Positions 3,591 through 22,531 of a stretch of 64,000 nucleotides of DNA are shown in pieces. This DNA comes from Rhodobacteraceae bacterium WD3A24 (GTDB lineage Bacteria > Pseudomonadota > Alphaproteobacteria > Rhodobacterales > Rhodobacteraceae). Position numbers and translations under genes: made by a program. Below the pieces are notes generated by a model that saw only the letters and a program-made list of their open reading frames with translations, searched no databases and was not told where the DNA came from. The stretch lies in NCBI GenBank assembly GCA_002967695.1, contig PUHN01000010.1, positions 1 through 64,000 of the forward strand, written 5' to 3'. Every line of letters begins with the position of its first letter. Position 1 is the first letter of the stretch.

Positions 3591-4805
3591 TCAGCCCTTG
3601 AGAAGCGCCTTGAGATCGGTGCGGGGGGATTCGATGGTCGCGGGGGCGGGGCTGCGCCCGGCCTCCAGCAAGCGCTTGCCGATCATGTAGGCGCGCGGGT
3701 CGTTCATCGCGTCCACCGCCAGCAGCGTCTCGCCCGCGTAGTACCAGTGCGAAACCGCGCCGCCCGCGCCCTCGCGGACGACGACGCGCTCATAGCCCTG
3801 GTTGAGCCCGGCGATCTGCAGCTTGACGTCGTACTGGTCCGACCAGAACCACGGGACGGGGTCGTAGGCCCGCCCCGCGCCCAGCATGTTGTCGGCCACG
3901 TATTCGCTCTGGTCGATGGCGTTCTGCACGCTTTCCAGCCGCACGCGCCCGCCCCGGAACGGAAACGAGGCGCAATCGCCGGCCGCCCAGACACCGGGCA
4001 CCAAGGTGCGCCCCTGCGCATCCACCGCGATGCCGTTGTCGATGGCAAGCCCGGCGGCCTCGGCCAGCGCGGCCGCCGGGGCGATGCCGATGCCGGTGAT
4101 GACGAAATCGGCCGAAATCTCGGTGCCGTCTTCCAGCACCGCGCCGGTGACGCGATCCTCACCCGTCAGGTGCGAAAGCCCGGTGCCCTCGCGGACATCG
4201 ACGCCGTGGCGGCGGTGCAGGTCGGCAAACCAGGCCGAGGTCTCGGGCGCGGCGACGCGGGCGAGGATGCGCGGCGCGGCCTCGACCAGGGTGACATCCA
4301 GCCCCTTCTGCGCGGCGACCGCGGCGGCCTCCAGCCCGATATAGCCCCCGCCGACCACCAGCACCCGCGCGCCCGCGACGAAGTCCGGCGCCATCGCGTC
4401 CACGTCGGCAAGGCTGCGCACGACATGGACCCCCGGCAGCGCGCCACCGATGGCCTCGGGCAGCCGGCGCGGGACCGAACCGGTCGTCAGCGCGAGCTGG
4501 TCGTAGTCCAGCCGCCCGCCCCCGGCCAGCGCGACCGTGCCTGCCGCGGTGTCGACGGCCTCGGCCCGCGTGCCGGTCAGCAGGCGGATGTCATGTTCGG
4601 CGTAATAGCTTTCGGGGCGCAGGAACAGCCGCTCCAGCGCCATCTCGCCCAGCAGGTATTTCTTCGACAGCGGCGGGCGTTGATAGGGGGGAACGGGTTC
4701 CTCGCCCACCAGCGTGACGGGGCCGTCATGCCCCTGCCCGCGCAGCCGCGCCACCAGCGCGGCGCCCGCCTGCCCGCCGCCGATCACCACGATATGCTCA
4801 GCCAT
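3591..4805 (-). CDS. NAD(P)/FAD-dependent ferredoxin reductase-type oxidoreductase
   Basis: 404 residues. FAD-binding G-G-G-Q-A-G at the N-terminus, second dinucleotide motif V-G-G-G-Y-I-G near residue 150, and the second FAD motif A-A-G-D-C-A near residue 272. The layout, with C-terminal reductase domain, matches putidaredoxin/rhodocoxin/phthalate-type ferredoxin reductases that pass electrons from NAD(P)H to a [2Fe-2S] ferredoxin feeding a monooxygenase. No ferredoxin or P450 gene is visible nearby, so the acceptor is unknown. It is the last gene of the leftward cluster, 24 bp after the TetR gene. Confidence 0.88.
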   Translation of the reverse strand: MAEHIVVIGGGQAGAALVARLRGQGHDGPVTLVGEEPVPPYQRPPLSKKYLLGEMALERLFLRPESYYAEHDIRLLTGTRAEAVDTAAGTVALAGGGRLDYDQLALTTGSVPRRLPEAIGGALPGVHVVRSLADVDAMAPDFVAGARVLVVGGGYIGLEAAAVAAQKGLDVTLVEAAPRILARVAAPETSAWFADLHRRHGVDVREGTGLSHLTGEDRVTGAVLEDGTEISADFVITGIGIAPAAALAEAAGLAIDNGIAVDAQGRTLVPGVWAAGDCASFPFRGGRVRLESVQNAIDQSEYVADNMLGAGRAYDPVPWFWSDQYDVKLQIAGLNQGYERVVVREGAGGAVSHWYYAGETLLAVDAMNDPRAYMIGKRLLEAGRSPAPATIESPRTDLKALLKG

Positions 4806-4829
4806 TGCCCGCCCCCTTCTCCGTCGTCC

Positions 4830-5447
4830 TCACGGCCGCAGCCCGCGCAGCACCAGTTCGGTCACCTCGGCGATGATCGGCTCGGGGTCCGGCGACGCCT
4901 CGTCGCCCAGCCCCAACATGAAGCGCACCTCGGTGAGGTGCAGCGCGTAGTGCTGCGTCAGCGCCCAGATGTTGAACTGCAGCAGCACGGGGTCGACCGG
5001 CCGGATCAGCCCGGCCTCGACCCAGCCGCGCACGCGCTCGGCGGCCTTCATCGTGGCCTCGCGCGAGGACGGCCAGTAGTCGCGCAGCATCGGCGCGCCG
5101 CGCATCACCTCGTTGGTGAAAAGCCGCGCGACCTCGGGGTGTTCCAGCGAGTGCCGTATCTTGCGGCCGATATAGCTGCGCAGGAACGCCTCGGGGCCCT
5201 CGTCGGTGGCGGTCTCGTGGAACAGCTCGGACCAGATCTCGATGATGCTCTGCAGCGATTGCTCGTAGAGCTCCTCCTTGCTGGCGATGTAGTAGTGCAG
5301 CTTGGTCTTGGAGATGCCCGCGCGGTCGGCGATCGCCTGGGTCGAGGCGCCGCGCAAGCCGTTCTCGGCGAATTCCTCGATCGCGGCCTGACGGATTTGC
5401 GCCATCAGTTCCTCGCGCCGAGTGGCAAGGTCGCTGCGCGCGCTCAT
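4830..5447 (-). CDS. TetR/AcrR regulator, RutR-like
   Basis: 205 residues. N-terminal TetR HTH (A-I-A-D-R-A-G-I-S-K-T-K-L-H-Y-Y, about residues 36-51), then a ligand domain whose landmarks (the H-P-E-V-A-R-L-F-x-N-E run, W-x-x-x-Q-H-Y, C-terminal L-R-G-L-R-P) resemble the RutR subgroup, which in E. coli senses pyrimidines. The start ATG overlaps the stop of the upstream RidA gene by 4 bp (ATGA), so the two are translationally coupled. It probably autoregulates the cluster. The pyrimidine ligand is inferred from subgroup resemblance only. Confidence 0.82.
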   Translation of the reverse strand: MSARSDLATRREELMAQIRQAAIEEFAENGLRGASTQAIADRAGISKTKLHYYIASKEELYEQSLQSIIEIWSELFHETATDEGPEAFLRSYIGRKIRHSLEHPEVARLFTNEVMRGAPMLRDYWPSSREATMKAAERVRGWVEAGLIRPVDPVLLQFNIWALTQHYALHLTEVRFMLGLGDEASPDPEPIIAEVTELVLRGLRP

Positions 5448-5899
5448 CGGGCCTCCGGCAGCCATGCGGTGGCCTCGACCTCGATCAGCGCCTCGGGCGT
5501 GGGCATCAGCTCGCTCACCCCGACGACGGTCGAGACCGGCGGCACCTCGGGGAAGAACAGCTTGCGCACCGCGTTGTAGCGCGGGAAGTGGTCCAGATCG
5601 GTGAAATACTGCACCAGCTTGAACACATCGCCCATTCCGCCACCGGCCTCCTCCATCGTGGCGCGGATACGGTCGAGGACGAACCAGCTTTGCGCGATGA
5701 CGGGGCCGTCGCGTGCATCGACCGAGAATTCTCCCGTCCGCCCGATCATGTCGGGGACGCCGTCGGGAAGATCTTCGAAGCCGCGGATCACCCGGCCCAG
5801 CGCCGGATCGACGGCGATGATGCCGGAGAGGAACACGAAGTCCCCCCGGCGCTGAAAGGCCGAGTAGCGGGCGAGCGGCTGGGCGGCACTGTCTGGCAT
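5444..5899 (-). CDS. RidA/YjgF family protein
   Basis: 151-residue RidA-fold protein. It shows F-L-S-G-I-I near the N-terminus, the central V-F-K-L-V-Q-Y-F-T-D segment and the C-terminal A-L-I-E-V-E-A-T-A strand. Classical RidA enamine deaminases keep an Arg in the P-A-R-S motif. Here the matching segment reads P-P-V-S-T-V, so the catalytic Arg is replaced by Val and standard deaminase activity is doubtful. RutC of the Rut pyrimidine pathway is a relative, which fits the RutR-like neighbour. It lies 9 bp downstream of the flavodoxin-fold gene. Confidence 0.82.
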   Translation of the reverse strand: MPDSAAQPLARYSAFQRRGDFVFLSGIIAVDPALGRVIRGFEDLPDGVPDMIGRTGEFSVDARDGPVIAQSWFVLDRIRATMEEAGGGMGDVFKLVQYFTDLDHFPRYNAVRKLFFPEVPPVSTVVGVSELMPTPEALIEVEATAWLPEAR

Positions 5900-5908
5900 G
5901 ACGGGCTC

Positions 5909-6520
5909 CTACAACGCCTTGAGGGTGGTTTCCACCCGGTCGAGAAAGCGCGCGCGCTCGGCCGCGGTGACGTTGTTCATGCTGTGAAGCTGGCGCCACA
6001 CGACCCGCGCGCGGCGATGAAACAGCGGCCGCAGGCCGCGCGTGAACAGGCTGCGCCCCGGGTCGCGGATGACCCTGAGCCACCACCAGGGCGAGCCCGA
6101 CGTGGTCAGCCCGACGAACAGGCGGATGTTCTGAAGCCGCGGGCGCGGCCGGTCGCCCTTGAACCGCGGGATCTCGAAGGTCACGCCGGGCAGCCAGACC
6201 CGCTCCAGCCAGCCCTTCAGCATCGCCGGCGGCCCGTAGAACCATGTGGGATAGACCACGACGAGCCCCTCGGCCCATTGCAGATCGGCAATATGGTCGG
6301 CCTGCCGCGCGTGGTTGGCCTCGGGATTGGCGAGGTAGTCCTCCCACTCGGTGCGCGACAGGACGGGGTCGAAGCCCATGCGGTAGAGATCGCGCAGGCG
6401 CAACTCGTGCCCGCCCACCTCCAGCGCGGCCACGGCGCGGGAAAGAACCGCCGCGCCGAAGCTGTCCGCGCTGGGATGGCAGAAGATCACCAGTAGCCGC
6501 ACGGGCTCCGCCCCTCTCAC
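5909..6520 (-). CDS. NAD(P)H-dependent flavodoxin-fold quinone oxidoreductase
   Basis: About 200 residues, NQO/MdaB-type flavodoxin fold. It has the FMN-phosphate loop C-H-P-S-A-D-S-F near the start, the V-V-V-Y-P-T-W-F-Y-G-P-P-A core motif and a downstream W-L-E-R-V-W. Such proteins reduce quinones or supply reduced flavin. The first start is GTG at 6520, directly abutting the upstream stop. A GTG at 6502 is preceded by a purine-rich GGGGCGGAG and gives MRLLVIFCHPS, so the shorter form is quite possible. It may supply electrons to the FAD oxidase or the terminal flavoprotein of the same operon (inference). Confidence 0.82.
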   Translation of the reverse strand: MRGAEPVRLLVIFCHPSADSFGAAVLSRAVAALEVGGHELRLRDLYRMGFDPVLSRTEWEDYLANPEANHARQADHIADLQWAEGLVVVYPTWFYGPPAMLKGWLERVWLPGVTFEIPRFKGDRPRPRLQNIRLFVGLTTSGSPWWWLRVIRDPGRSLFTRGLRPLFHRRARVVWRQLHSMNNVTAAERARFLDRVETTLKAL

Positions 6521-7516
6521 TCAGCGGTCCGTGTAGAGGTCCATGCCGACACCGTTGTTGACGAACTGGTCGGTCGCCACGGCGCCCGGGTCGAGCGCGC
6601 CCTCCTCGATGATGCCGGAATTGACCGCCAGATCGTGGAAGGCGGCCACACGATCGAGATCGAGCGCGCCGATGCCGTGCTCGCGCGCGTCGCCGCTGTC
6701 GACGATGCCCAGATCCATCATCTGCGCCACCTCGGCGTCGAGCTTTTCGACGGACTGCTCGGGGTTCTCCTCCATGATCAGATCATAGGCCGCGCTGCGG
6801 TCGCCATAGAGGAAGTTGTACCAGCCGATGATCGAGGCATCGACGAAACGCTGGACCAGGTCGGGGTCGTTCTCGACAAGCTCGGTGCGCGTCTCGATCG
6901 TGGTGGCATAGGTGTTCCAGCCCTGCTCGGCCAGAAGATAGGTATCGACCTCGGCGCCCTCGGCGGCGGCATAGAGCGGCTCGGCCGTGGCATAGGCCTG
7001 CTGGACGATCTCCTCGTCCTGCAGGAACTGCGCGATGTTGAAGCCGTAGGGGCGCAGTTGCTCGTCGCGGAAGCCGTGCTCATCGACCAGCCACTGCCAG
7101 AAGCTGAACTGCCCGTCGCGGCTGAGCAGCACGGTGGGCGCATTGGCCAGATCGGCGAAGTCCTCATAGACGCCGGCATGCGACATCAGCGCCTGCGGAT
7201 CGCGCTGAAAGAACGCGGCGACGACGGTGGTGGGAATGTCGTTGCGCACATTGTCGAAGGACAGCAGAAGGTTGCCGGCCATGAGAAAATCCAGCCGCCC
7301 GGCGGGCAGCATGGGCCGGTTGTTCATCTGCGGGCCGCCCTCGACGATTTCCACGTCGAGCCCGTATTCGGCGTAGGTGCCGTCGGCCAGCGCCTGGTAG
7401 AAGCCGCCATGCCCGCCCTGGGCCAGCCAGTTTGTGCCGAAGCGGACCTCGTCCTGCGCGCTGGCGGCGCCGGCGACCATGGTCATCGCGATGGCCGTGG
7501 GGATAATCCTGTTCAT
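6521..7516 (-). CDS. NMT1/THI5-like ABC transporter substrate-binding protein
   Basis: 331 residues with a Sec signal peptide ending near A-G-A-A-S-A-Q (about residue 20), so periplasmic. The mature part starts E-V-R-F-G-T-N-W-L-A-Q-G-G-H-G-G-F-Y-Q-A-L, the hallmark of NMT1/THI5/SsuA-type binding proteins for pyrimidine precursors, sulfonates and similar small organics. The ATG at 7516 has AAAGGA eight bases upstream. Permease and ATPase partners are encoded upstream in the same operon but separated by the deaminase and FAD oxidase genes, which ties uptake to catabolism. Confidence 0.88.
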   Translation of the reverse strand: MNRIIPTAIAMTMVAGAASAQDEVRFGTNWLAQGGHGGFYQALADGTYAEYGLDVEIVEGGPQMNNRPMLPAGRLDFLMAGNLLLSFDNVRNDIPTTVVAAFFQRDPQALMSHAGVYEDFADLANAPTVLLSRDGQFSFWQWLVDEHGFRDEQLRPYGFNIAQFLQDEEIVQQAYATAEPLYAAAEGAEVDTYLLAEQGWNTYATTIETRTELVENDPDLVQRFVDASIIGWYNFLYGDRSAAYDLIMEENPEQSVEKLDAEVAQMMDLGIVDSGDAREHGIGALDLDRVAAFHDLAVNSGIIEEGALDPGAVATDQFVNNGVGMDLYTDR

Positions 7517-7545
7517 GTCGTGTCCTTTCACTCTCCTGTCGGTGG

Positions 7546-8913
7546 TCACTGGGCCGCCATGTCGGCGGTCCATCCCCGGGTTTTTCCCGGATTCATAAGG
7601 CCCCTGGGATCGGCCAGCTTCTTGAAGGCGATCTGGGCGGTGTCGATTTCCTTCATGCCGCCATCCTCGATGGTGACGACATGCGGGTCGAAGACGGTGC
7701 AGCCGTCGGTGCTTTCCAGCTCGTCGATGATCTCGTAGATGCGCGCGCGGCTGGTCCAGCGCACCAGAGGCAGCGCAAAGATCTGGATCTCGCCGTCCAT
7801 CCGCGCCATCTCGTGGTGGAAGTAGACCTCGTCGCCGTAGCGGCGCATCTGCGCCATCACCAGATCGGGGTCGAACGGGCGCGGATAGGCCACCTGCAGA
7901 TAGGTCCACACGCCCGGCTCGTGCTTGAGCGCCTGCAGCGTGGTGTGGTTCCAGCCGCACTCCCAGGCCGGCGGCAGGCCGGCGGCCTCGATCTCGGCCA
8001 GGGGCTTTTGCAGGCTGATGGTGCCGCCCGCCTCGGCCACGCGGCGGGCGAACTCCTCGGCGGCCTCGGGCGCGACCATGGTGAACACCGCGTCGCGGTC
8101 GGGCGGGAACAGCCCCTCCAGCCGCTTGTAGAAGGGGGCGAAGCGCCGCTCGACCGGCGTCATCAGGAAACAGTCGAGGCCCTCGGCCTGCGCCTTGGTG
8201 GCAAAGCGCAGCGCCACGTCGTAGCCGTCGAACAGCGCGATGGCGTGCAGCCAGTCCGTCGCCGGGCTCAGCGCGAAGTCCAGCGCGGTGATGATCCCGT
8301 TGGTGCCGTAGGCGTGCTGGACCTTGAGCGTGTCGTCGCCCTCAAGCTCGATCACGCGCGGCTCGGGCTCGACCGTGACCACGCGGATGTAGGAGACGTT
8401 GCCGCCATCGGCCAGCATCCCGTGGCGCAGGCTGCCGATGCCGCCCGAGCCGCCCGAGATGAACCCCCCGATCGTCGCCGTGCGCTTGGTCGAGGGGAAC
8501 ATGTTGAGCATCTGGCCGGACTCGGCCACGGCCTCCTCCAGCCGCGAGATGCGCATCCCCGCCTGCACGCGGACGCGCCCCTCGCCGATCTCGATGACCT
8601 TGTTCAGCCGCGTGATGTCCAGGATCACGCCCCCTTCCAGCGGCACGCATTGCCCGTAATTGCCCGTGCCGCCGCCGCGCAGCGTCACCGGCAGGCCGTG
8701 GCGCGCGGCGGCGGCGGCGACGCGCTTAACCTCGTCCTCGTCCTCGGGCATCACCACGATGTCGCCCGCAAGGCCGTCGAGCTCGGCGTCGAGGATCGGC
8801 GAATACCAGAAATAGTCGCGCGAGCGCGCCGCCACCATCTTGGGGTCGTCATAGACGCGGACGCCGTCGATCTCCGCGCGGAAGGCGTCGAGTGTGTCGT
8901 GCGATACGGTCAT
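7546..8913 (-). CDS. FAD-binding oxidase (GlcD / FAD_binding_4 family)
   Basis: 455 residues. The PCMH-type FAD domain is clear: P-E-D-E-D-E-V, then L-R-G-G-G-T-G-N-Y-G-Q, and the G-G-F-I-S-G-G-S-G-G-I-G-S-L loop about residues 150-165. The C-terminus has the P-R-G-L-M-N-P-G-K segment typical of lactate/glycolate/alditol-type dehydrogenases. It probably oxidises a hydroxy-acid or alcohol intermediate in the cytoplasm. The start overlaps the deaminase stop by 4 bp (8910-8913). Substrate cannot be deduced from sequence. Confidence 0.88.
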   Translation of the reverse strand: MTVSHDTLDAFRAEIDGVRVYDDPKMVAARSRDYFWYSPILDAELDGLAGDIVVMPEDEDEVKRVAAAAARHGLPVTLRGGGTGNYGQCVPLEGGVILDITRLNKVIEIGEGRVRVQAGMRISRLEEAVAESGQMLNMFPSTKRTATIGGFISGGSGGIGSLRHGMLADGGNVSYIRVVTVEPEPRVIELEGDDTLKVQHAYGTNGIITALDFALSPATDWLHAIALFDGYDVALRFATKAQAEGLDCFLMTPVERRFAPFYKRLEGLFPPDRDAVFTMVAPEAAEEFARRVAEAGGTISLQKPLAEIEAAGLPPAWECGWNHTTLQALKHEPGVWTYLQVAYPRPFDPDLVMAQMRRYGDEVYFHHEMARMDGEIQIFALPLVRWTSRARIYEIIDELESTDGCTVFDPHVVTIEDGGMKEIDTAQIAFKKLADPRGLMNPGKTRGWTADMAAQ

Positions 8914-10142
8914 AGCGGGGCCTCGTCGGTCAGGGCGTTGGTCAGGGGCGCCGATGTCTCGTGGCCGGCACGGAAGACGCGGCGCGAAATGCAGGGGTGG
9001 CGCAGCGCCTCGTCCCAGCCGGGCGCGGGCAGCAGCAGGAAATCGGCGGGCGCGCCGGGCTCCAGCGTGCCGGCGTCCAGCCCCAGCCAGCGCGCCGGCG
9101 TGGTGGTGACGGCGTCGATCCACGCCCCGGGCTCCAGATGCGCGGCCCAGGCGGCCTGGCGCAGCACGTCGAGCGGGTCGTAGGCGCCGTAGGGGTAGAA
9201 CGGGTCGGCAACGTTGTCGGCCCCAAGCATCACCTCGACCCCGGCCGCGCGCGCCTCGTGCAGCGGCGCGATCCCGCGCAGGCGCGGCGTCCGGCCGGGG
9301 GCTGCATCCTGCAGCCAGGTGTTGGTGGTAGGCAGCGCGCACAGCCCCACGCCCGCCTCGGCGGCGCGGGCCAGCACCGCGGCCGCCTCGGGCGCGGGCC
9401 GCACCGACAGCGAACAGGCATGCCCGCACAGCACCCGCCCCGCCATGCCGTGGCGGGCGGTCAGCTCGATGATCGTCTCGATGCCGCGCGCCTCGGGATC
9501 GAGCCCCTCGTCGACGTGGAAGTCGAGGGGCAGCGCATGGCGCTCGGCAAGCGCGAACACCCGCGCGAGCTTGTCGTGCAGCGCGTCGTTGCGGTAGACG
9601 AACGCGCCGAGAACCGCGTCCTCGCACTCGGCAACGCGGACGGCGATATCGGGGCCAAGCGCGGGATCGCCGATCAGGTCGAGCGGGCAGAGCGCGGCGC
9701 GCTGGATCGTGATGCGCCCGCGCCACTCGCGCGCCATCGCGCCCAGCACGCCCCAGGCGCGCGGCTCGCCCGCGTCTTCCCAGTCGACATGCGTGCGGAC
9801 ACCGCGCATTCCGGCGGTCTCCGCCTCGGCCAGCGCGCGGCCCGCGCGGGCGCGGATATCGGCGGCGGTCCAGTGCACCTTGTCGGCGCGCGTGGCCTCG
9901 ATCGCGCCGAACAGCCCCGGCGCGCCGCGCCCGGCGCGCCCGGCGGTGTGGGTCTTGTCGAGATGCAGATGCGGGTCGACCGGCAGCGGCAGGGCGAGCC
10001 TGCGCGCCGGCCCCGCCGCCGCCGGCATCGCCGCGATCCGGCTGCCGTCGAGCTGCAGATCGACCACGCGGCCATCCGCCAGCGCGACGCCAGCAAGCGT
10101 CTGGCGCCCGTCGGGCGCCACAGGGGGCGCGTCAGGTCTCAC
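8910..10142 (-). CDS. Cytosine deaminase-like amidohydrolase
   Basis: 410-residue TIM-barrel metal-dependent hydrolase of the CodA type. Metal ligands are visible in order: P-H-L-H-L-D-K-T-H (HxH, about residue 58), D-F-H-V-D-E-G, G-H-A-C-S-L-S and the late Asp in L-G-A-D-N-V-A-D-P-F-Y-P-Y-G. CodA relatives deaminate cytosine, isoguanine or other cyclic amidines. Translation starts at GTG 10142, overlapping the permease stop by 11 bp. The neighbouring RutR-like regulator and NMT1/THI5 importer favour a pyrimidine-like substrate, as inference. Confidence 0.88.
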   Translation of the reverse strand: MRPDAPPVAPDGRQTLAGVALADGRVVDLQLDGSRIAAMPAAAGPARRLALPLPVDPHLHLDKTHTAGRAGRGAPGLFGAIEATRADKVHWTAADIRARAGRALAEAETAGMRGVRTHVDWEDAGEPRAWGVLGAMAREWRGRITIQRAALCPLDLIGDPALGPDIAVRVAECEDAVLGAFVYRNDALHDKLARVFALAERHALPLDFHVDEGLDPEARGIETIIELTARHGMAGRVLCGHACSLSVRPAPEAAAVLARAAEAGVGLCALPTTNTWLQDAAPGRTPRLRGIAPLHEARAAGVEVMLGADNVADPFYPYGAYDPLDVLRQAAWAAHLEPGAWIDAVTTTPARWLGLDAGTLEPGAPADFLLLPAPGWDEALRHPCISRRVFRAGHETSAPLTNALTDEAPL

Positions 10143-11022
10143 GCTTGATCTCGCTTTCGTGCCAGTGGCCCAGCACCAGCTTGGAGGCCAGCGTGGTCAG
10201 CAGGAAGATCGCCACGCCCAGCAGCGAGACGAGAACCAGCGCCGCGAACATCCGCGGAATCTCGTTGCGAAAGCTCGCCTCGATGATGCGCGAGGCCAGC
10301 CCGGTGTTCTGGCCCGTCGCCCCGGCGACGAACTCGGCCACCACCGCCCCGATCAGCGCCAGCCCCCCGGCCACCTTCAGCGCGGCCATGAAATACGGCA
10401 GCGCCGAGGGCGCCAGCAGGTAGCGCAGCCGCTGCCACGGCGTCGCGCGATAGAGCGTGAACAGGTCGCGCAGGTTGTGGTCGGCGCTGCGCAGCCCGAT
10501 CACCGTGTTCGACAGGATCGGAAAGAAGGCGACGATCCACGCGCAGATCAGCAGCGCGACGAAGGTGTTGGCGACATAGATCAGGATCAGCGGCGCGATC
10601 GCCACGACCGGGGTGACCTGCAGGATGACCGCGAAGGGAAACAGGCTCATCTCGACCGAGCGCGACAGCGCGAACAGCGCGCCCAGCAGAACCCCGCCCA
10701 CGACCGCCAGCAACAGCGAGAAGAACGTCAGCTTGACCGTGAACCACGCCGATTGCAGCAGCGACGGGCCATCGGTCCAAAGCGTCTCGGCCACGCGGCT
10801 CGGCGCGGGGATCAGGTAGTGGGGAATGTCGTTGGCGCGCACCCACCATTCCCAGCCCAGGATCGCCAGCGCCATCGTGGCCAGCGGCATCACCCAGGCA
10901 AGGATCCGCTCGCGCCGCATCGCGGCCAGATGCTCGGTGTTGAGCGGCGCCGGCTCGTCCTGCACCGCTCCGGCGGGCGTCCGGGCCTCTTGCGGGGATT
11001 CAATGGTCGATGTCGTCGTCAT
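10132..11022 (-). CDS. ABC transporter permease (SsuC/TauC/ThiX type)
   Basis: 296 residues with about six membrane segments. It carries the permease signature around residues 195-215 (A-P-S-A-L-P-Y-F-M-A-A-L-K-V-A-G-G), an EAA-like loop that docks with the ATPase. The family imports sulfonates, taurine or pyrimidine precursors with NMT1-type binding proteins. The gene overlaps the ATPase gene by 23 bp and the deaminase gene by 11 bp, so it is co-transcribed with both. Confidence 0.9.
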   Translation of the reverse strand: MTTTSTIESPQEARTPAGAVQDEPAPLNTEHLAAMRRERILAWVMPLATMALAILGWEWWVRANDIPHYLIPAPSRVAETLWTDGPSLLQSAWFTVKLTFFSLLLAVVGGVLLGALFALSRSVEMSLFPFAVILQVTPVVAIAPLILIYVANTFVALLICAWIVAFFPILSNTVIGLRSADHNLRDLFTLYRATPWQRLRYLLAPSALPYFMAALKVAGGLALIGAVVAEFVAGATGQNTGLASRIIEASFRNEIPRMFAALVLVSLLGVAIFLLTTLASKLVLGHWHESEIKRET

Positions 11023-11779
11023 GGAGCGTCTCCTTGAGCTCGGCCGAAACACGGCGGCACTCGTCGGCATAGGTCTGGGAGGTGCGGAAATCGTCGCCCC
11101 GCGGCCAGGGCGCGCCGACCTGCAGTTCCTCGGCCACGCGCCCCGGCCGCGCGGCCATCACGACGATGCGGTTCGACAGGTAGACGGACTCGAAGACCGA
11201 GTGCGTGACGAACACCACCGTCAGCCCGTGCTCGGCCGACAGCCGCACCACGTCGTTGTTGAGCTTCATCCGCGTCATCTCGTCGAGCGCGGCGAAGGGT
11301 TCGTCCATCAGCAGGATGCGCGGGCGCGTGACCATCGCGCGGGCGATGGAGACGCGCATCTTCATGCCGCCCGACAGCTCGCGCGGATAGGCGCGCTCGA
11401 ACTTCGACAACCCGACCTCGCGCAGGGCCTGCTCGACCCGCTCGCGCGCGCGGTTCCTGCCCACGCCCGCCAGCCGGAGCGGCAGCCACACATTGTCGAA
11501 CACCCTGGCCCAGGGCATCAGCGTGGGCTCCTGAAAGACGAAGCCCAGATCCTGCTCGGCCTGCTCGCCCGCCTCCGGCGGCTTGATGTCGATGGTGCCG
11601 GCGGTGACCGGCAGCAGCCCCGCGATCATCCGCAGGGCGGTCGACTTGCCGCAGCCCGAGGGCCCGAGAAAGCTGATGAAGTCGCCCTTCTCGATGGTCA
11701 GGCTCATGTTGTCCACGGCGACGACCGATCGGCCGAATTCCTTGCGGACCCGGTCCATGCGGATCAGGGGCTGGTTCAT
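11000..11779 (-). CDS. ABC transporter ATP-binding protein (SsuB/TauB type)
   Basis: 259 residues. Walker A G-P-S-G-C-G-K-S-T (about residue 40), Q-loop F-V-F-Q-E-P-T-L-M-P-W, ABC signature L-S-G-G-M-K-M-R, Walker B I-L-L-M-D-E-P-F-A-A-L-D and switch His in V-T-H-S are all present, so it should be active. The Q-E-P-T-L-M-P-W form is typical of nitrate/sulfonate/taurine-class ATPases. The start at 11779 overlaps the creatininase stop by 4 bp. Confidence 0.92.
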   Translation of the reverse strand: MNQPLIRMDRVRKEFGRSVVAVDNMSLTIEKGDFISFLGPSGCGKSTALRMIAGLLPVTAGTIDIKPPEAGEQAEQDLGFVFQEPTLMPWARVFDNVWLPLRLAGVGRNRARERVEQALREVGLSKFERAYPRELSGGMKMRVSIARAMVTRPRILLMDEPFAALDEMTRMKLNNDVVRLSAEHGLTVVFVTHSVFESVYLSNRIVVMAARPGRVAEELQVGAPWPRGDDFRTSQTYADECRRVSAELKETLHDDDIDH

Positions 11780-12597
11780 TCGGCGGCCTCCGGGTCGGCG
11801 GGATTGTTCAGGATGGAAAGCGGCGTGGCGGCGACCTCCTGCAGCAGGCGCGCAATCTGGCGCCCGCCATTGCCGAGGAAGGCGCGCCCCTTCTCGGCGG
11901 TGGCGCTGGCGGCGTTGCCGCAGGCGCCCGCGGGGTGCATGTCCTGCGCCTGCCAGCCCAGCTTGCCCGCGGGCGTCAGGCCCAGATGGCGGTTCTCGGC
12001 CGCCATCCGCGCGTTGAGGGGGCGGAAGTCGCGCGCGCGCTCCATCGCCACCAGATCGGGGCGTAGCGCCAGCATGACCGATGTCTCCATGTCGCCGGCA
12101 TGAATGCCGTGGCGCGCCTCCTCGTCGGTGAGCAGCCCCTCGGGCAGGCCCATGGCGAACCAGTTGGCCGCGACCGCCAGCATGTCGTGCTTCACGCGCA
12201 GATCGCGGGCGACGATGTCCATCACCGCGATCTGCCCGCCATGCGAGTTCAGCATCACCAGCTTGCGCACGCCCGCGGCGGCGACGGAGTCGCCCAGCTC
12301 GGTCCACATCGAGATCAGCGTGTGGCTGGAGAAGGTCAGCGTGCCGGGGTAGCGGCTGTGTTCGTTGCTCTTGCCGACGGCCTGCGTGGGCAGGAACAGC
12401 GCCGGGCAGTCCCCGGGCAGATGCCCGATCGTGGCCGCGATCATCCCGTCAAGGATCGCCTGATCCACGCTCAGCGGCAGGTGCGGCCCGTGCTGCTCGA
12501 TCGCGCCCACGGGCAGGACGGCCACGAGGGCCTCGCGGTCGAGGCGCGCGAAGTCGCGCGCGGTGTAGTCGGCCCAGAAACGGCTGTGAAGCTGCAT
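11776..12597 (-). CDS. Creatininase family amidohydrolase
   Basis: 273 residues. The family signatures are intact: V-G-A-I-E-Q-H-G-P-H-L-P-L-S-V-D (metal-binding Glu and His residues, about 31-46), N-S-H-G-G-Q and H-A-G-D-M-E-T-S. Members hydrolyse cyclic amides or related C-N bonds (creatinine, formamidopyrimidine in flavin/F420 synthesis, inosose derivatives). The ATG at 12597 shares one base with the transketolase stop (TGATG). A TTG three bases earlier is an alternative. With the importer and deaminase it probably opens a cyclic N-substrate (inference). Confidence 0.88.
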   Translation of the reverse strand: MQLHSRFWADYTARDFARLDREALVAVLPVGAIEQHGPHLPLSVDQAILDGMIAATIGHLPGDCPALFLPTQAVGKSNEHSRYPGTLTFSSHTLISMWTELGDSVAAAGVRKLVMLNSHGGQIAVMDIVARDLRVKHDMLAVAANWFAMGLPEGLLTDEEARHGIHAGDMETSVMLALRPDLVAMERARDFRPLNARMAAENRHLGLTPAGKLGWQAQDMHPAGACGNAASATAEKGRAFLGNGGRQIARLLQEVAATPLSILNNPADPEAAE

Positions 12598-14981
12598 CAA
12601 AGTCCCCCGGTCAGGCGCAGCGGGCGTCCGGGGGCAAGCCCCGTGACCACCCGGATGATGGAGTTCCGGTCGATCCCGAAATGGCGGTAGAGTTCCGGCA
12701 CGCTGCCGGTCTGGCCGAAATGCTCGACCCCCAGCCCCGCCACGCGGTGGCCGTGGACCGAGCCCAGCCAGGACAGCGTCGCGGGATGGCCGTCGATGAC
12801 GGTCACGATCAGGCAGTGGCGCGGCAGCCCCTCCAGCAGGTCCTCGACATGGGCGCGGCCCTCGCGCCCCTGCACCCGGGCCGTCTGCGCCGCCTGCCAG
12901 CCGGCGTTGAGACGGTCGGCCGAGGTCACGGCAAGCACGCCGACGTCGCGCCGCCCCTCGGCGATGCTGGCCGCGGCGGCGATGGCCTCGGAGGCCACCA
13001 CGCCCTGATAGGCGATGACGACCTCGCAGTTCGGCCCCGGCTCGCGCAGCCAGTAGGCCCCGTCGATCACGCCCTGCCGGATGTCGTCGGCCGGCCGGCG
13101 CGGCTGCTCCAGCGCGCGCGTGGACAGCCGCAGATAGACCGAGCCGCCGCCGGCCTCGCGCGCCCAGTCGGCGCCCTCAGCCTTGCCGCCGTCGCGCTGG
13201 AGGTAATCGAAGGCCCATTCCATGATGACGGCAAGCTCGTCGGCAAAGGCCGGCTCGAACGCCGCCAGCCCGTCCTGGCTCATCCCGATCAGCGGCGTGC
13301 CCACCGACTGGTGCGCGCCGCCCTCGGGCGCGAGCGAGACGCCTGAGGGCGTGCCGGCCACGATGAAGCGCGCATCCTGGTAGCAGGCGTAGTTCAGCGC
13401 ATCGAGCCCGCGCGCGACGAAGGGGTCGTAGAGCGCGCCCACCGGGATCAGCCGCTCGCCGAACAGCGAATGCGACAGCCCCGCCGCGCCCAGCAGCAGG
13501 AACAGGTTCATCTCGGCGATGCCCAGCTCGACATGCTGACCCTTCGGCGAGAAGCCCCATTTCTGGACCGAGGGGACCTTTTCGTCGCGGAAGGTGTCGG
13601 GCCGCTCCTCCAGCGCGAACAGACCCCGGCGGTTAACCCAGGCGCCCAGGTTCGTCGAGACCGTCACATCGGGCGAGGACGTCACCACCCGGTCGGCCAG
13701 CGGCCCGTCGGACCGGGCGAGCTGGTCGAGGATCTTGCCAAACGCCGCCTGGGTCGAGATCTCGGCGTCGTCGGGCGCGGCCAGCGCGGGCACGTCGATC
13801 CTCGGCGCGGTGTAGCGCCGCGTCCCGCGCGCGTTGAACGGCGTGCGGGCCAGCAGCGCGTCCAGCGCCGCCTCGTCCATCTCCAGCCCCTCGGCGCGGT
13901 CCCATTCATGGCCCTCGCGCACGCCCATGCCGGCGCGGAACGCCTCCATCTGCGCGGGCGTCATCAGCCCGCCGTGATTGTCCTTGTGGCCGGCAAGCGG
14001 CGTGCCCCAGCCCTTGATGGTGTAGAAGACGAAGGCCGTGGGCGTCGGGTCGTCCCCGGCCGCGTCGAAGGCGGCGCGGACGGTTTCGGGGCAGTGCCCG
14101 CCGAGGTTCTCCATCAGCGCGGCCAACTCGTCGTCGCCGCGCCGGTCGATCAGGGCCGACACCGCGCCCTGATCGCCGATATCGTCCATAAGCCGTTTGC
14201 GCCACGCCGCGCCTCCCTGGTAGGTCAGCGCCGAGTAGAGCGGGTTGGGGCAGGCGTCGATCCATTCGCGCAGCGCCTCGCCGCCCTCCTCCTCGAAGGC
14301 CGCGCGCTGCAGCGCGCCGTATTTCAGCCGCACCACCTTCCAGCCGAAGGCGGTAAAGATGCTCTCGATGCGTTCCGACAGCCCCTCGCGCACCACGCCG
14401 TCAAGGCTCTGGCGGTTGTAGTCGATGATCCACCAGCAGTTGCGCAGGCCCTGCTTCCAGCCCTCCTGCAGGCACTCGTAGACGTTGCCCTCGTCAAGCT
14501 CGGCATCGCCGACAAGCGCCACCATCCGCCCCGCCGGCACGTCGCCGCCCCAGCCCTTGGCGCGCACATAGTCCTGGATCAGCGAGGCAAAGGCCGTCAT
14601 CGCCACGCCCAGCCCCACCGAGCCGGTCGAGAAATCGACGTCGTCGCCATCCTTTGTGCGCGAGGGGTAGGACTGCGCCCCGCCATAGCCGCGGAACGCC
14701 TCGAGCGCCGCGCGGCTCTGGTTGCCCAGCAGATACTGGATGGCGTGGAACAGCGGCGAGGCGTGCGGCTTGACCGCCACGCGGTCCTCGGGGCGCAGGA
14801 TGTCGAAATAGAGCACGCTCATCAGCGTGGCCATCGACGCGCAGGAGGCCAGATGCCCGCCGACCTTCAGCGCGTCGGGCTTGGGCCGCAGGTGATTGGC
14901 GTTGTGTATGGTCCAGGCGCTGAGCCACAGCGCCTTGCGCTCCAGCGCGCGCAGCTCGTCGATATCGGGTCGCGCGGCCAT
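12597..14981 (-). CDS. Transketolase / pyruvate dehydrogenase E1-like TPP enzyme
   Basis: 794 residues, first gene of the leftward operon. The N-terminal half has the thiamine-diphosphate motif G-D-A-E-L-D-E-G-N with downstream N (about residues 195-235). The C-terminal half has the pyrimidine-binding domain around G-I-A-E-M-N-L and an E1-like transketolase C-terminal domain. Overall it resembles the long AceE/transketolase-like group more than TktA. The ATG at 14981 was chosen because residues upstream are low-complexity and overlap the promoter, and GGGGGAAGG precedes it. Acceptor and donor are unknown; it may cleave or transfer a two-carbon unit from the pathway product. Confidence 0.85.
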   Translation of the reverse strand: MAARPDIDELRALERKALWLSAWTIHNANHLRPKPDALKVGGHLASCASMATLMSVLYFDILRPEDRVAVKPHASPLFHAIQYLLGNQSRAALEAFRGYGGAQSYPSRTKDGDDVDFSTGSVGLGVAMTAFASLIQDYVRAKGWGGDVPAGRMVALVGDAELDEGNVYECLQEGWKQGLRNCWWIIDYNRQSLDGVVREGLSERIESIFTAFGWKVVRLKYGALQRAAFEEEGGEALREWIDACPNPLYSALTYQGGAAWRKRLMDDIGDQGAVSALIDRRGDDELAALMENLGGHCPETVRAAFDAAGDDPTPTAFVFYTIKGWGTPLAGHKDNHGGLMTPAQMEAFRAGMGVREGHEWDRAEGLEMDEAALDALLARTPFNARGTRRYTAPRIDVPALAAPDDAEISTQAAFGKILDQLARSDGPLADRVVTSSPDVTVSTNLGAWVNRRGLFALEERPDTFRDEKVPSVQKWGFSPKGQHVELGIAEMNLFLLLGAAGLSHSLFGERLIPVGALYDPFVARGLDALNYACYQDARFIVAGTPSGVSLAPEGGAHQSVGTPLIGMSQDGLAAFEPAFADELAVIMEWAFDYLQRDGGKAEGADWAREAGGGSVYLRLSTRALEQPRRPADDIRQGVIDGAYWLREPGPNCEVVIAYQGVVASEAIAAAASIAEGRRDVGVLAVTSADRLNAGWQAAQTARVQGREGRAHVEDLLEGLPRHCLIVTVIDGHPATLSWLGSVHGHRVAGLGVEHFGQTGSVPELYRHFGIDRNSIIRVVTGLAPGRPLRLTGGL

Positions 14982-15004: not shown

Positions 15005-15053
15005 CGCGACAGAATGTCACGGATGCCGGACATGTCAAACCAAAAGGTTTGAC
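15005..15053 (-). promoter_or_regulatory. Promoter with overlapping palindromic operator for the 14981-3591 operon
   Basis: A perfect 8-bp inverted repeat, GTCAAACC-AAAA-GGTTTGAC, spans 15034-15053. Read on the minus strand, its distal arm contains TTGACA (complement of 15033-15038), an exact -35 consensus, followed after 16-17 bp by a weak -10 (CATTCT). A protein bound to the palindrome would cover the -35, suggesting repression. The symmetry with a 4-bp spacer fits a GntR- or TetR-type dimer. The operon-encoded RutR-like TetR is the obvious candidate but is unproven. Confidence 0.6.
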
Positions 15054-15230: not shown

Positions 15231-16328
15231 TCAGATCTCGAAGAACTGCTCGCGCGCGCGCATGAATCCCATGTCGGTATTCTCGGTGCGCGAGCGCACC
15301 AGCCGCAATGCATCGACATAGCTCTCGGCCGTGCGGCGGGTCAGGTCGTCGTCCGAGGCCAGAAGCCCCTCCATGATCTCCCTGGCGGCCGTCGCGGCAG
15401 CATCGAGGATCTCGTCGGGGAATTCGGGATGGACGATCACGTCATGCTCGTTGACCAGCGTCTGCAGCGCGACCGGATCGTTGGCGTAGAAATCGCTGGC
15501 GACCTGATCATATTCGGCCTGGCAGACGTCGCGTATGATCGCCTGCAGGTTCTCGGGCAGTTCCTGATACTTGGCCTTGTCGACGACGAGTTCGGTCGCC
15601 AGTCCCGGCTCGTTGAATGAGGCCGTGTAGTAGTGCTTGCGCACCTGGTGGAAGCCCAGCGCGAGGTCGTTATAGGGGCCGACGAACTCGGCCGCATCCA
15701 GCGCGCCCGACTGCAGCGCCTGGAACACCTCGCCAGCGGCGAGGTTGGTCACCGACACGCCAAGCTCCTGCCAGACCTGCCCGCCCAGGCCCGGCGTGCG
15801 GAACCGCAGGCCCTGGATGTCGTCGAGGCCGGTCAGCTCGTTGTCGAACCAGCCGCCCGCCTGGGTGCCGGTATCGCCGGACATGAAGCCCTTGAGCCCG
15901 AACTGGTCATAGACCTCGTCCCACATTTCCTGGCCGCCCATGTAACGCATCCAGGCGGCGAGCTCGCGCGAGGTCATCCCGAAGGGCACGCCGGTGAAGA
16001 AGTTGAGCGCCTGGCTCTTGTTCTGCCAGTAATAGGCCGCGCCGTGGCTCATCTCGGCGGTGCCGTCGATCACCGCGTCGAGCGACTGCAGCGCGGGCAC
16101 CATCTCGCCGGCCGAGAAGACCTCGATGGTCAGCGCGCCGTCGCTCGCGGCGGTGATCCGGTCGGCGAGGCGCTGCGCCCCCACGCCCAGACCGGGAAAG
16201 TTGCGCGGCCAGGTGGTGACCATGCGCCATGTGGTGGTGCCCTGCGCCACCGCCGGCGCGGCAAGCGAGGCAGCCGCCGCAGCGGTGCCGCCAAGGGCCG
16301 ATCTTCTCAGAAATGAGCGACGATCCAT
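15231..16328 (-). CDS. TRAP transporter substrate-binding protein (DctP family)
   Basis: 365 residues with a twin-arginine-like signal (D-R-R-S-F-L-R-R-S-A-L-G-G, cleavage after A-V-A-Q about residue 29). The mature protein has DctP features: Q-A-G-G-W-F, L-R-F-R-T-P-G-L and F-V-G-P-Y-N-D, close to 2-oxoacid/carboxylate-binding members such as TakP. Two ATGs are adjacent (16331, 16328). The GGAGG lies 6 nt before the second, so 16328 was chosen. No DctQ or DctM membrane genes are adjacent, so it is an orphan. It is divergent from ilvB. Confidence 0.9.
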   Translation of the reverse strand: MDRRSFLRRSALGGTAAAAASLAAPAVAQGTTTWRMVTTWPRNFPGLGVGAQRLADRITAASDGALTIEVFSAGEMVPALQSLDAVIDGTAEMSHGAAYYWQNKSQALNFFTGVPFGMTSRELAAWMRYMGGQEMWDEVYDQFGLKGFMSGDTGTQAGGWFDNELTGLDDIQGLRFRTPGLGGQVWQELGVSVTNLAAGEVFQALQSGALDAAEFVGPYNDLALGFHQVRKHYYTASFNEPGLATELVVDKAKYQELPENLQAIIRDVCQAEYDQVASDFYANDPVALQTLVNEHDVIVHPEFPDEILDAAATAAREIMEGLLASDDDLTRRTAESYVDALRLVRSRTENTDMGFMRAREQFFEI

Positions 16329-16537
16329 CATTTTCCTCCCCAGTTTGCGGCGCCCGCCCCGTGCGCGGCGCCGGTGGTGGCGCGACCATACACATCGAGA
16401 ATGGCGCTGAAAAGACAGCCCCGCGCAGGCCCCTTGTACCCGCGGGGTCTTGCGCGAAATGTCCCAGGAGCGGCCGCCGGGGCAACAATCGCAAACCAGA
16501 ACCGGCCCGCGCGACATAAATTTCGCCAATTTGGCAG

Positions 16538-16667: not shown

Positions 16668-16696
16668 GCCCCCGACCGCATCGGGGGCTTTTTTTT
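16668..16696 (+). terminator. Attenuator terminator of the ilvBN leader
   Basis: GCCCCCGA / TCGGGGGC stem (16668-16675 with 16681-16688), 5-nt loop, then eight T residues at 16689-16696: a textbook intrinsic terminator placed between the leader peptide and ilvB. It would abort transcription when leucine and valine are plentiful. Confidence 0.88.
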
Positions 16697-20456: not shown

Positions 20457-20852
20457 ATGACCGACTGCCTGGCCGTCCTGCAATCGCTGTACCGCCCGCG
20501 CCTGCTCGTCAGCGCCGCGCGCTTCGGGCTCGAACATTACCGGCGCGGCCCGGCGCTGCGCCGGCTGCTCGGCACGGATGTCGCGCCGGCGCCACGCGCC
20601 GCGCTCGAGCGTCTCCGGGCCCTCGAGGCCGAGCAGGACGCCGACCGGCGCGCGCGCGCCGCCTCCTACAGCCCCGCCCGCCATGTCGAGATCCTCATCG
20701 CCCTGATGGCCGAAGCCCGGCTGGTCGCCCGCGCGACCAGCCGGCCACCCGCCCCGGCCCCGCGACGCCCGGAGATGCGCCCCGCCGCCGCGCGGCGCGA
20801 TGCCGGTCAGCCGAAGGCGTCGGGCATGGAGGCCTTGCGGCGCGCGACATAG
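20457..20852 (+). CDS. DUF6477 family protein
   Basis: 131 residues. The opening ([17 protein letters not shown], then [12 protein letters not shown]) matches the small Rhodobacteraceae proteins grouped as DUF6477. Function is unknown. GGGAGATG just upstream supplies the ribosome site for the ATG at 20457. The last 46 bp overlap the 3' end of the convergent MttB-like gene, and the Pro/Arg-rich C-terminus probably carries little constraint. Confidence 0.65.
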
Positions 20853-22354
20853 TCGTTGAGCGCCTCGAACACGGCCGGGTCGAGCTGCGGCTGCTGATAA
20901 TCGGCGAGCTGCCTGGCCACGCGCGCTTGCGCGAGGGTGGCGGTGTCGCGGGCGCCGTCGTCGTCCCACTGCTCGAAGGGCTTGTAGTCGAGCATGTCGG
21001 AGCGCCAGAACGCCTCCTTGAAATTGGCCTGGGTGTGCGCACAGCCGAGATAATGGCCGCCGGGGCCGACCTCGCGGATCGCGTCCATCGCCTGGCCCGT
21101 CTCGCTGAGATCCACGCCCTTCGCGAAGTGATGAAGCACGCCGAGCTGGTCGGCATCCATTACGAATTTCTCGAAACTCGCCACAAGCCCGCCCTCAAGC
21201 CAGCCGCAGGAATGCAGCATGAAATTGACGCCCGCCAGCAGCCCCATCTTGAGGCTGTTGGCCGTCTCGTAGCCCGCCTGCGCGTCGGGCAGCTTGGAGC
21301 CCGTGAATGCCCCGCCCGACCGATAGGGCAGCCCCAGCCGCCGGGCGAGCTGGCCCATGCCGTAGGTGATGTGCGCGGCCTCGGGCGTGCCGAAGGTGGG
21401 CGCGCCCGAATTCATGTCGATCGAGGTGACGAAGGCGCCCATGATCACCGGCGCGCCTGGTCGGATGAGCTGGGAATAGGCCACGCCGGCGAGCGCCTCG
21501 GCAAGCACCTGGGTGAGCGTTCCGGCCACGGTGACCGGGGCCATCGCCCCGCCGACGATGAAGGGCGAGAGGATACAGGCCTGATTGGCCGCCGCGTAGG
21601 TCTCCAGCGCCCCCATCATCACGCCGTCGAAGGTCAGCGGCGAGTTCACATTGACCAGCGAGGTCATCACGGGGTTTTCGTCGACCACATCCGCGCCGAA
21701 CAACAGCCGGGCCATTTCGACCGAATCGTGGGCGCGTTCAGGGTCTGTGACCGAGCCCATGAAGGGTTTGTCGGACAGCGTCATATGCGCCAGCAGCATG
21801 TCGAGATGGCGCTTGTTGACCGCGATGTCGGTGGGTTCGCAGACCGTGCCCCCCGAATGGTGGAGCCATTTCGACATATAGCCGAGCTTGACGAAGTTGT
21901 GGAAGTCCTCGAGCGTGGCATAGCGGCGCCCGCCGGCGACATCGCGCACGAAGGGCGGCCCGTAGACCGGCGCGAAGACGAGGCTGCGCCCGCCGATTTC
22001 CACGCTGCGCGCGCGGTTGCGCGCGAGCTGGGTAAAGCGCGAGGGCGCGGTGGCGCAGAGCCCGCGCGCCAGCCCGCGCGGCATGCGCACCCGTTCGCCC
22101 TGCACGTCGGCGCCGGCGTCGCGCCAGCGCTCCAGCGCGGCGGGGTTCTCGACGAAGTTCACGCCGATCTCTTCGAGGAGCGTCTCGGCATTGTGCTCGA
22201 TGGTCTCCAGCGCCTCGGCGTCGAGCACCTCGAAATCGGGGATGCGCCGCTCGATGAACTTCGCCGTCTCCACGCTGACGGCGGTGCGTTGCGCCCGTCG
22301 TGCCGCACCGCCGCCGCCGCGGCTCCTGCGCCCTGTCGCACTCGCCTCGCCCAT
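20807..22354 (-). CDS. Trimethylamine methyltransferase (MttB) family protein, non-pyrrolysine type
   Basis: 515 residues covering the full MttB family length. Recognisable blocks include the E-E-I-G-V-N-F helix near the N-terminus, [14 protein letters not shown] and [12 protein letters not shown]. True archaeal MttB needs an in-frame UAG for pyrrolysine. This gene reads through without any amber codon, as in non-Pyl homologues such as glycine betaine:corrinoid methyltransferase. It probably demethylates a quaternary amine onto a corrinoid protein, but no corrinoid protein gene is adjacent. GGAGG precedes the ATG by 7 nt. Confidence 0.85.
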
Positions 22355-22531
22355 GATGCACCTCCGTCCGTGCCAGCCCGCCTCTGCGCCCGTGATAGCC
22401 GCTCGCGGCGACGCGCTCAGGACGATTTGCGCCGCTTCGGGCGTGAAAGCGACCTGTCGGCGCCCCGCTTTGGCGCCACGCGCGCGCAGGCCGGCCTTGC
22501 GCCGGGCGCGCGCCTTGCCTATGGGACCGCC

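Follow-up and report, generated by a model that had tools for sequence, protein, structure and literature searches.

A candidate pterin-catabolism operon led by an AceE-type E1-like gene in Rhodobacteraceae bacterium WD3A24

The window, a stretch of 64,000 nucleotides from Rhodobacteraceae bacterium WD3A24 (GenBank assembly GCA_002967695.1, contig PUHN01000010.1, positions 1 to 64,000 of the forward strand), carries at 3591-14981 a block of eleven genes that most probably serves the import and breakdown of pterins (pterin/folate-ring catabolism). All eleven genes lie on the minus strand and mostly overlap or abut, with position 14981 belonging to the start codon of the first gene and 3591 to the stop of the last. 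With start codons picked by hand, the intergenic gaps in order of transcription are -1, -4, -23, -11, -4, +29, 0, +9, -4 and +24 bases; since they range only from -23 to +29 bases, the genes likely form one transcription unit. The initial annotation had described an eleven-gene operon with these limits, and the coordinates and gaps agree with it. In addition, each of the eleven genes has a Pfam match, which bears out the gene families that had been named. The operator candidate and the genes, in transcription order, are:

15034..15053, no strand: operator candidate, perfect 8+4+8 palindrome GTCAAACC-TTTT-GGTTTGAC, 53-72 bases ahead of the first gene
12597..14981, minus strand: E1-like, AceE-type, thiamin pyrophosphate (TPP)-dependent 2-oxo-acid enzyme, first gene, 794 residues (transketolase/pyruvate dehydrogenase (PDH)-E1-like Pfam match, TIGR00759)
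11776..12597, minus strand: creatininase-family hydrolase, putative lactam hydrolase, 273 residues (PF02633, E 9e-70)
11000..11779, minus strand: ATP-binding cassette (ABC) transporter ATPase, 259 residues (PF00005, ABC_tran)
10132..11022, minus strand: ABC transporter permease, 296 residues, start uncertain (PF00528, BPD_transp_1)
8910..10142, minus strand: CodA-like amidohydrolase, candidate pterin deaminase, 410 residues (Amidohydro_3)
7546..8913, minus strand: flavin adenine dinucleotide (FAD)-dependent enzyme, flavin oxygenase candidate for the pyrazine ring, 455 residues (FAD_binding_4)
6521..7516, minus strand: NMT1/THI5-type periplasmic binding protein, 331 residues (PF09084, NMT1)
5909..6520, minus strand: flavodoxin-fold NAD(P)H oxidoreductase, possible electron supply, 203 residues (PF02525, Flavodoxin_2)
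5444..5899, minus strand: RidA-family protein, possible imine/enamine hydrolase, 151 residues (PF01042, Ribonuc_L-PSP)
4830..5447, minus strand: RutR-like TetR regulator, 205 residues (TetR_N and TetR_C_3, PF08362)
3591..4805, minus strand: ferredoxin-reductase-type FAD enzyme, last gene, 404 residues (PF07992, Pyr_redox_2, and PF14759, Reductase_C)

The substrate of this operon is very probably a pterin, with its folate-type ring, and not a simple pyrimidine. An assayed, gene-assigned bacterial pterin deaminase (PDA) of 399 residues is known from Variovorax sp. F1 (PMC9513972). Its published cloning primers map to the 398-codon deaminase gene of V. boronicumulans (locus L071), with 2 mismatches in 21 bases at the start and 4 in 21 at the stop. 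The F1 enzyme is described as 76.7% identical to the V. paradoxus S110 protein and 37.0% identical to Arad3529 (PMC9513972); the V. boronicumulans deaminase shares 73-76% identity with V. paradoxus proteins and 36-38% with the Rhizobium type. Its gene adjoins genes for RidA, TetR, NMT1, the FAD enzyme, permease, ATPase and creatininase. Furthermore, in 8 of 12 Variovorax loci divergent deaminase and RidA genes stand beside genes for TetR, NMT1, the FAD enzyme, a transporter and creatininase; the other four are either cut short (L077, L078) or differently arranged (L079, L121). By identity and gene neighbourhood, the window deaminase is orthologous to the assayed Variovorax enzyme. It shares its family and catalytic residues with the pterin deaminases (EC 3.5.4.11) Variovorax PDA and Arad3529, the latter reportedly described by Fan et al. 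in 2013 from Agrobacterium radiobacter K84. It also resembles Variovorax PDA in the nearby RidA, creatininase, ABC transporter, FAD-enzyme and TetR genes, and differs in sequence, its identity with the V. boronicumulans deaminase being 46.6%.

Residues H58, H60, H209, E212, H241 and D309 of the window deaminase are invariant in nine aligned deaminases and correspond to CodA positions; we take them to be the metal and catalytic residues of an amidohydrolase. The nearest solved structure is E. coli cytosine deaminase. Identification as cytosine deaminase (CodA) was nevertheless rejected: the protein scores 123 bits against a cut-off of 483 on the cytosine deaminase model NF006685 and 321 against 403 on its nearest curated model, NF005759/PRK07583, and carries Asp-Asn (Asn310) where CodA has an Asp-Asp pair. 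The loss of the second Asp presumably speaks against cytosine deaminase activity. A deaminase tree was built from the window and 31 loci chosen among 94 with a sufficiently long deaminase; the clade holding the window enzyme was supported at only 80/43, and the fine branching is not relied on.

The FAD enzyme points independently toward the folate ring. Its best PDB sequence match is 6v42/6v43, two entries of the same sequence (E 8e-126, nearly full length), and its AlphaFold2 model (10 sequences; predicted local distance difference test score, pLDDT, 83) has 6v42 as top fold match, with a template modelling (TM) score of 0.87 and 47% identity. The title of 6v42, 'Crystal structure of the flavin oxygenase with cofactor bound involved in folate catabolism', is the sole source of the link to folate; the publication behind the entry was not found in the open-licence literature searched. 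Roseibium and Rhizobium cluster members are 65-69% identical to 6v42. By sequence and modelled fold, the window protein would belong with this flavin oxygenase, which it resembles in fold, in nearly its full length and in a cluster type common to rhizobial relatives, while differing in an identity of about 47%.

Gene content, family assignments and synteny are direct observations. Loci were sampled by scanning GTDB contigs with the nine-member deaminase alignment, and the best 80 of 424 relatives were scored for gene presence at set identity thresholds. Creatininase was found in 63 loci, the FAD enzyme in 67 and both in 59; as the loci had been fetched by their deaminase, this grouping exceeds chance. 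Among the nine loci lacking both, six are shorter than 16 kb and three (L090, L095, L123) span 17.5-21 kb. The transporter genes NMT1, ATPase and permease occur in 59 loci each, any RidA in 53 (a second, different RidA family in 35), TetR in 33, tetronate kinase in 13 and the window-type E1 in one. Because nine loci keep creatininase, deaminase and FAD enzyme without NMT1, these three enzymes are suggested to be the chemical core. Much of the block lies on plasmids in Leisingera, Roseateles, Nitratireductor, Pseudosulfitobacter and Rhizobium, and variant blocks do so in Klebsiella, Ruegeria TM1040 and Agrobacterium. No description of the whole cluster or of its E1-led form was found in the open-licence literature searched. 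The operon is of a known kind, with a deaminase and a flavin-enzyme family that are already described; its E1-led form appears new to that literature.

Several redox genes accompany this core. The flavodoxin-fold oxidoreductase gene occurs in 39 of the 80 loci and the ferredoxin-reductase gene in 14. In several clusters a gene for a 2Fe-2S ferredoxin accompanies the latter (L036 14054-14383; L040 13197-13517); no relative of this protein was detected in the window at E 1e-4. A TauD-type or 2-oxoglutarate/Fe(II)-type oxygenase gene lies nearby in L041, L094, L112, L117 and L120, and in L042 and L087, which suggests alternative oxidation steps in these variants.

The model of the binding protein (13 sequences, pLDDT 85) ranks as its first three fold matches 3ix1, an N-formyl-aminopyrimidine binder, 4nmy, a thiamin binder, and 4h6d, Thi5. 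A ligand of the aminopyrimidine or thiamin kind is only suggested, because these matches share just 14-17% identity. Uptake of taurine or sulfonates was rejected: the ThiY, thiamin-binding and Thi5 structures come first, TauA 28th and SsuA 33rd. The model therefore lends no support to a taurine ligand, which the initial annotation had named as counting against its proposal. The creatininase-family protein retains the metal-ligand set of its superfamily: all 10 cluster members aligned, out of 10, share E34, H36, D45, H119 and E171. Identification as creatinine amidohydrolase was rejected, as the protein has HGG where those enzymes carry HYE and scores 91 bits against a cut-off of 235 on the equivalog TIGR04448.

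The first gene, previously called transketolase-like, does match transketolase/PDH-E1-like Pfam families and can be refined to an AceE-type 2-oxo-acid dehydrogenase E1, the nearest model being TIGR00759 (E 1.8e-52). Its protein aligns with E. coli PDH E1 and is collinear over most of its length with the TPP-enzyme domains, a likeness that extends to AceE-type E1 in general (PDH E1 and 'AKGDH_not_PDH'). The scores are far under both cut-offs, at 178.5 against 859.9 bits for TIGR00759 (AceE) and 155 against 1408 for 'AKGDH_not_PDH'. Pyruvate dehydrogenase E1 (AceE) itself was rejected on this score, and the sequence places the protein in a separate subfamily of AceE-type E1.

A census of 198 genomes of the family, WD3A24 included, counted as homologues proteins with at least 65% identity in the best piece, and a hand count gave E1 in 53 genomes. 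The deaminase is at least 52% identical in seven genomes, WD3A24 among them, and in all seven E1 stands beside the cluster: in six it lies no more than 3 kb from the deaminase on one contig, and in G021 it adjoins creatininase on a short contig. In the window, the E1 and creatininase genes overlap by 1 base. Thirteen further genomes combine E1 with a more distant deaminase, lying within 20 kb in G165, more than 1 Mb apart in G013 and on different contigs in 11. Each of the three plasmids viewed that carry an unlinked E1 has a gene for an Lrp-type regulator either next to it or two genes off. In Ruegeria pomeroyi (L033 14632-18391) the E1-like gene adjoins a methionine gamma-lyase gene. Such neighbours fit a 2-oxo-acid enzyme, hinting that the subfamily handles 2-oxobutyrate or similar acids. 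A different AceE-type E1 lies near the cluster in 10 of 12 Variovorax loci; it matches at 24-26%, forms a distinct subfamily and was counted separately from the window type, and the one representative tested passes the 'AKGDH_not_PDH' cut-off (1452 against 1408 bits). In Leisingera (L036 1413-3898), a frameshift or sequencing error divides the E1-like gene into two reading frames that overlap.

A palindrome search located the operator candidate within the 249 bases that precede the first gene, and the palindrome resembles the RutR box. Of 38 TetR-bearing loci (leaving out L046, whose creatininase gene lies at a contig edge), 14 carry the palindrome's core, RACCNNNNGGTY, ahead of the creatininase gene, where 0.93 would be expected. 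Eleven of the 14 are closely similar rhizobial loci with a nearly identical site, which leaves few independent cases (L047, L067, L073 and the window). The core also precedes 3 of 7 cluster-linked E1 genes against 1 of 23 unlinked ones, the single unlinked case being L021, at -322. Searched with a RutR consensus at up to 3 mismatches, the window gave 4 matches against 0.71 expected, none of them ahead of the operon. The pairing of the TetR regulator with the palindrome as its operator is proposed only: the RutR-like repressor would bind ahead of the first gene, and its signal may be the substrate or a uracil-type intermediate.

The likeness of this regulator to RutR, claimed earlier, holds, with a score well under the RutR cut-off (TIGR03613, 142 against 368 bits). 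The RutR-like regulator, the RidA-family protein and flavin chemistry recall the Rut pathway, from which the operon differs in that both RutR and RutC (39 against 169 bits) fall well under their cut-offs and RutA, RutB and RutD have no match in the eleven genes; the Rut pathway was rejected accordingly. The reductive pyrimidine and hydantoin pathways likewise have no matching enzymes among them. The earlier exclusion of the Rut and reductive routes can thus be upheld, whereas the statement that the operon matches no known pathway cannot: synteny and homology indicate pterin/folate-ring catabolism (PMC9513972; 6v42 title). The synteny comparison that the initial annotation had called for brought the established pathway partly into view, and only parts of it were found described in the literature. 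As for the pyrimidine-like or cyclic-amide substrate first suggested, the import of an N-heterocycle that includes a pyrimidine half stands, as does a cyclic-amide hydrolase, while a simple pyrimidine gives way to a pterin.

All steps past deamination are proposals, and their order is offered tentatively. The binding protein and ABC transporter would take up a free, hydroxymethyl-, carboxy- or polyol-pterin, which may stem from folate or other pterin cofactors as these are turned over. The CodA-like enzyme would strip the 2-amino group, converting pterin to lumazine, and the flavin enzyme, possibly fed with electrons by the flavodoxin-fold reductase, would oxidise the pyrazine ring, most likely at C7 to a 7-oxo lactam. 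Opening of the C7-N8 lactam by the creatininase-family hydrolase would turn C6 and C7 into a 2-oxo acid still bound to 5,6-diaminouracil through an imine. The acid would be released by the RidA protein or by water and decarboxylated by the AceE-type TPP enzyme, its identity being set by the C6 side chain. Pterin C7 and C6 derive from C1' and C2' of the ribose of guanosine triphosphate. With C7 becoming the carboxyl and C6 the imine or keto carbon, each pterin would yield R-CO-COOH. Oxidative decarboxylation would then give D-erythronate where R is D-erythro-trihydroxypropyl (D-erythro-neopterin) and L-threonate where R is an L-threo chain (L-threo-monapterin); R = CH2OH (6-hydroxymethylpterin) would lead to hydroxypyruvate and D-glycerate, and R = H (unsubstituted pterin) to glyoxylate. 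This complete route, in which lactam hydrolysis opens the pyrazine ring and C6, C7 and the side chain are recovered as a 2-oxo acid for a dedicated E1, is possible rather than probable. It would account jointly for creatininase, RidA, E1 and the variable neighbours, and its side-chain-set products would explain why D-erythronate dehydrogenase, L-threonate dehydrogenase, kinase and reductase genes appear beside the cluster across lineages.

Among these neighbours, the genes of tetronate (D-erythronate/L-threonate) catabolism adjoin the cluster in Variovorax, Aquamicrobium, Mesorhizobium soli and Frigidibacter, but not the window operon. Tested representatives pass the curated cut-offs for L-threonate dehydrogenase, D-erythronate dehydrogenase, oxo-tetronate isomerase and oxo-tetronate kinase, and the decarboxylase representative falls slightly short (228 against 250). 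A tetronate kinase within 10 kb of the deaminase was found in 13 of 80 loci, namely ten of Variovorax and one each of the three alphaproteobacteria Aquamicrobium, M. soli and Frigidibacter, which amounts to at least two gene arrangements and not to 13 events. In nine of the ten Variovorax loci, the stop of the oxo-tetronate isomerase gene overlaps the deaminase start by 4 bases. In addition, a hydroxypyruvate/glyoxylate-type reductase gene adjoins the cluster in Leisingera, Roseateles, Shinella and Ruegeria marina; it is annotated as D-glycerate dehydrogenase, with 300 bits against a cut-off of 455 on the nearest model. The WD3A24 genome holds a reductase 57% identical to that of Leisingera, on another contig.

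Several observations weigh against pterin catabolism by this route. The NF005759 cut-off is missed not only by the window deaminase but also by the Variovorax L071 protein (335 bits), and the third primer of PMC9513972, for the downstream gene, has at least 5 mismatches to every Variovorax locus. Variovorax F1 deaminates folate slowly and its extracts barely degraded deaminopteroate, so that full ring breakdown is unproven in this strain (PMC9513972). Tetronate kinase is missing from the WD3A24 genome, and not one of the 29 family genomes that combine it with a deaminase shows the two within 20 kb; by hand count, the two genes share a contig in 8 of these, always more than 20 kb apart, and lie on separate contigs in 21, where they may still be close together. 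In the window RidA, a Ser replaces the Arg of other RidA proteins, presumably the catalytic arginine, and the protein is thus predicted to fall outside the canonical RidA imine deaminases. Furthermore, 33 of the 53 E1-bearing genomes have no deaminase match at E 1e-40, and the proposed route gives no onward step for 5,6-diaminouracil.

Among the alternatives, the most likely, itself possible rather than probable, follows the older textbook idea that the pterin ring contracts to xanthine-8-carboxylate and enters purine breakdown; no 2-oxo acid would be freed, and the E1 gene would be a mere passenger. The missing tetronate kinase would suit this idea, as would the E1 genes outside the cluster, near Lrp-type regulators in 3 of 3 cases viewed and once near methionine gamma-lyase. 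The adjacency of E1 in 7 of 7 genomes, with its 1-base overlap to creatininase in the window, argues the other way, as do the operator-like site that tracks linked E1 genes (3/7 against 1/23) and the presence of another AceE-type E1 in Variovorax clusters.

Degradation of a simple pyrimidine (cytosine, hydroxymethylpyrimidine or some modified base), in which the RutR-like protein would sense pyrimidines, would agree with E. coli cytosine deaminase as nearest solved structure, with the TetR regulator and with a binding-protein fold near ThiY and Thi5. It is nonetheless improbable, as the deaminase is a syntenic orthologue of an assayed pterin deaminase, the flavin enzyme matches a structure with folate catabolism in its title, and a lactam hydrolase and ring oxygenase would be left without a role after cytosine deamination; the replacement of CodA's second Asp by Asn310 points the same way. 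Equally improbable is another fused heterocycle, whether riboflavin or lumichrome, a purine such as isoguanine, or a deazapurine. Creatininase-superfamily and FAD enzymes act on several fused heterocycles and the binding-protein fold does not separate such ligands, but two independent core enzymes indicate pterin or folate, and family searches of the eleven genes gave no enzyme specific to riboflavin or purines. Creatinine or hydantoin degradation, despite the strong creatininase family match (E 9e-70), can practically be dismissed, since creatinine, among the substrates first considered, fails on both the HYE-to-HGG change and the equivalog score (91 against 235 bits), and no hydantoinase or carbamoylase match was found among the eleven genes.

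Other features lie close to the operon. On the same strand, 249 bases upstream of it, stands a lone gene for a tripartite ATP-independent periplasmic (TRAP)-type (DctP) binding protein with a signal resembling that for twin-arginine translocation (15231-16331); no DctQ/DctM partner was seen adjoining it. A strong terminator-like hairpin with a T run occupies 16668-16688 on the plus strand, just before an acetolactate-synthase gene pair, and at 20807-22639 a 610-residue gene of the trimethylamine-methyltransferase (MTTB) family runs without an in-frame stop.

Altogether, pterin catabolism, as favoured here for the operon, bears on a question that PMC9513972 leaves open, namely the fate of the pterin ring after deamination, given that deaminopteroate was barely degraded by extracts. 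The operon offers a candidate set for this purpose, comprising an importer, a deaminase, a flavin enzyme, a ring hydrolase, a 2-oxo-acid enzyme, a regulator and an operator. With a distinct product predicted for each side chain, the pathway would be directly testable by reconstitution.

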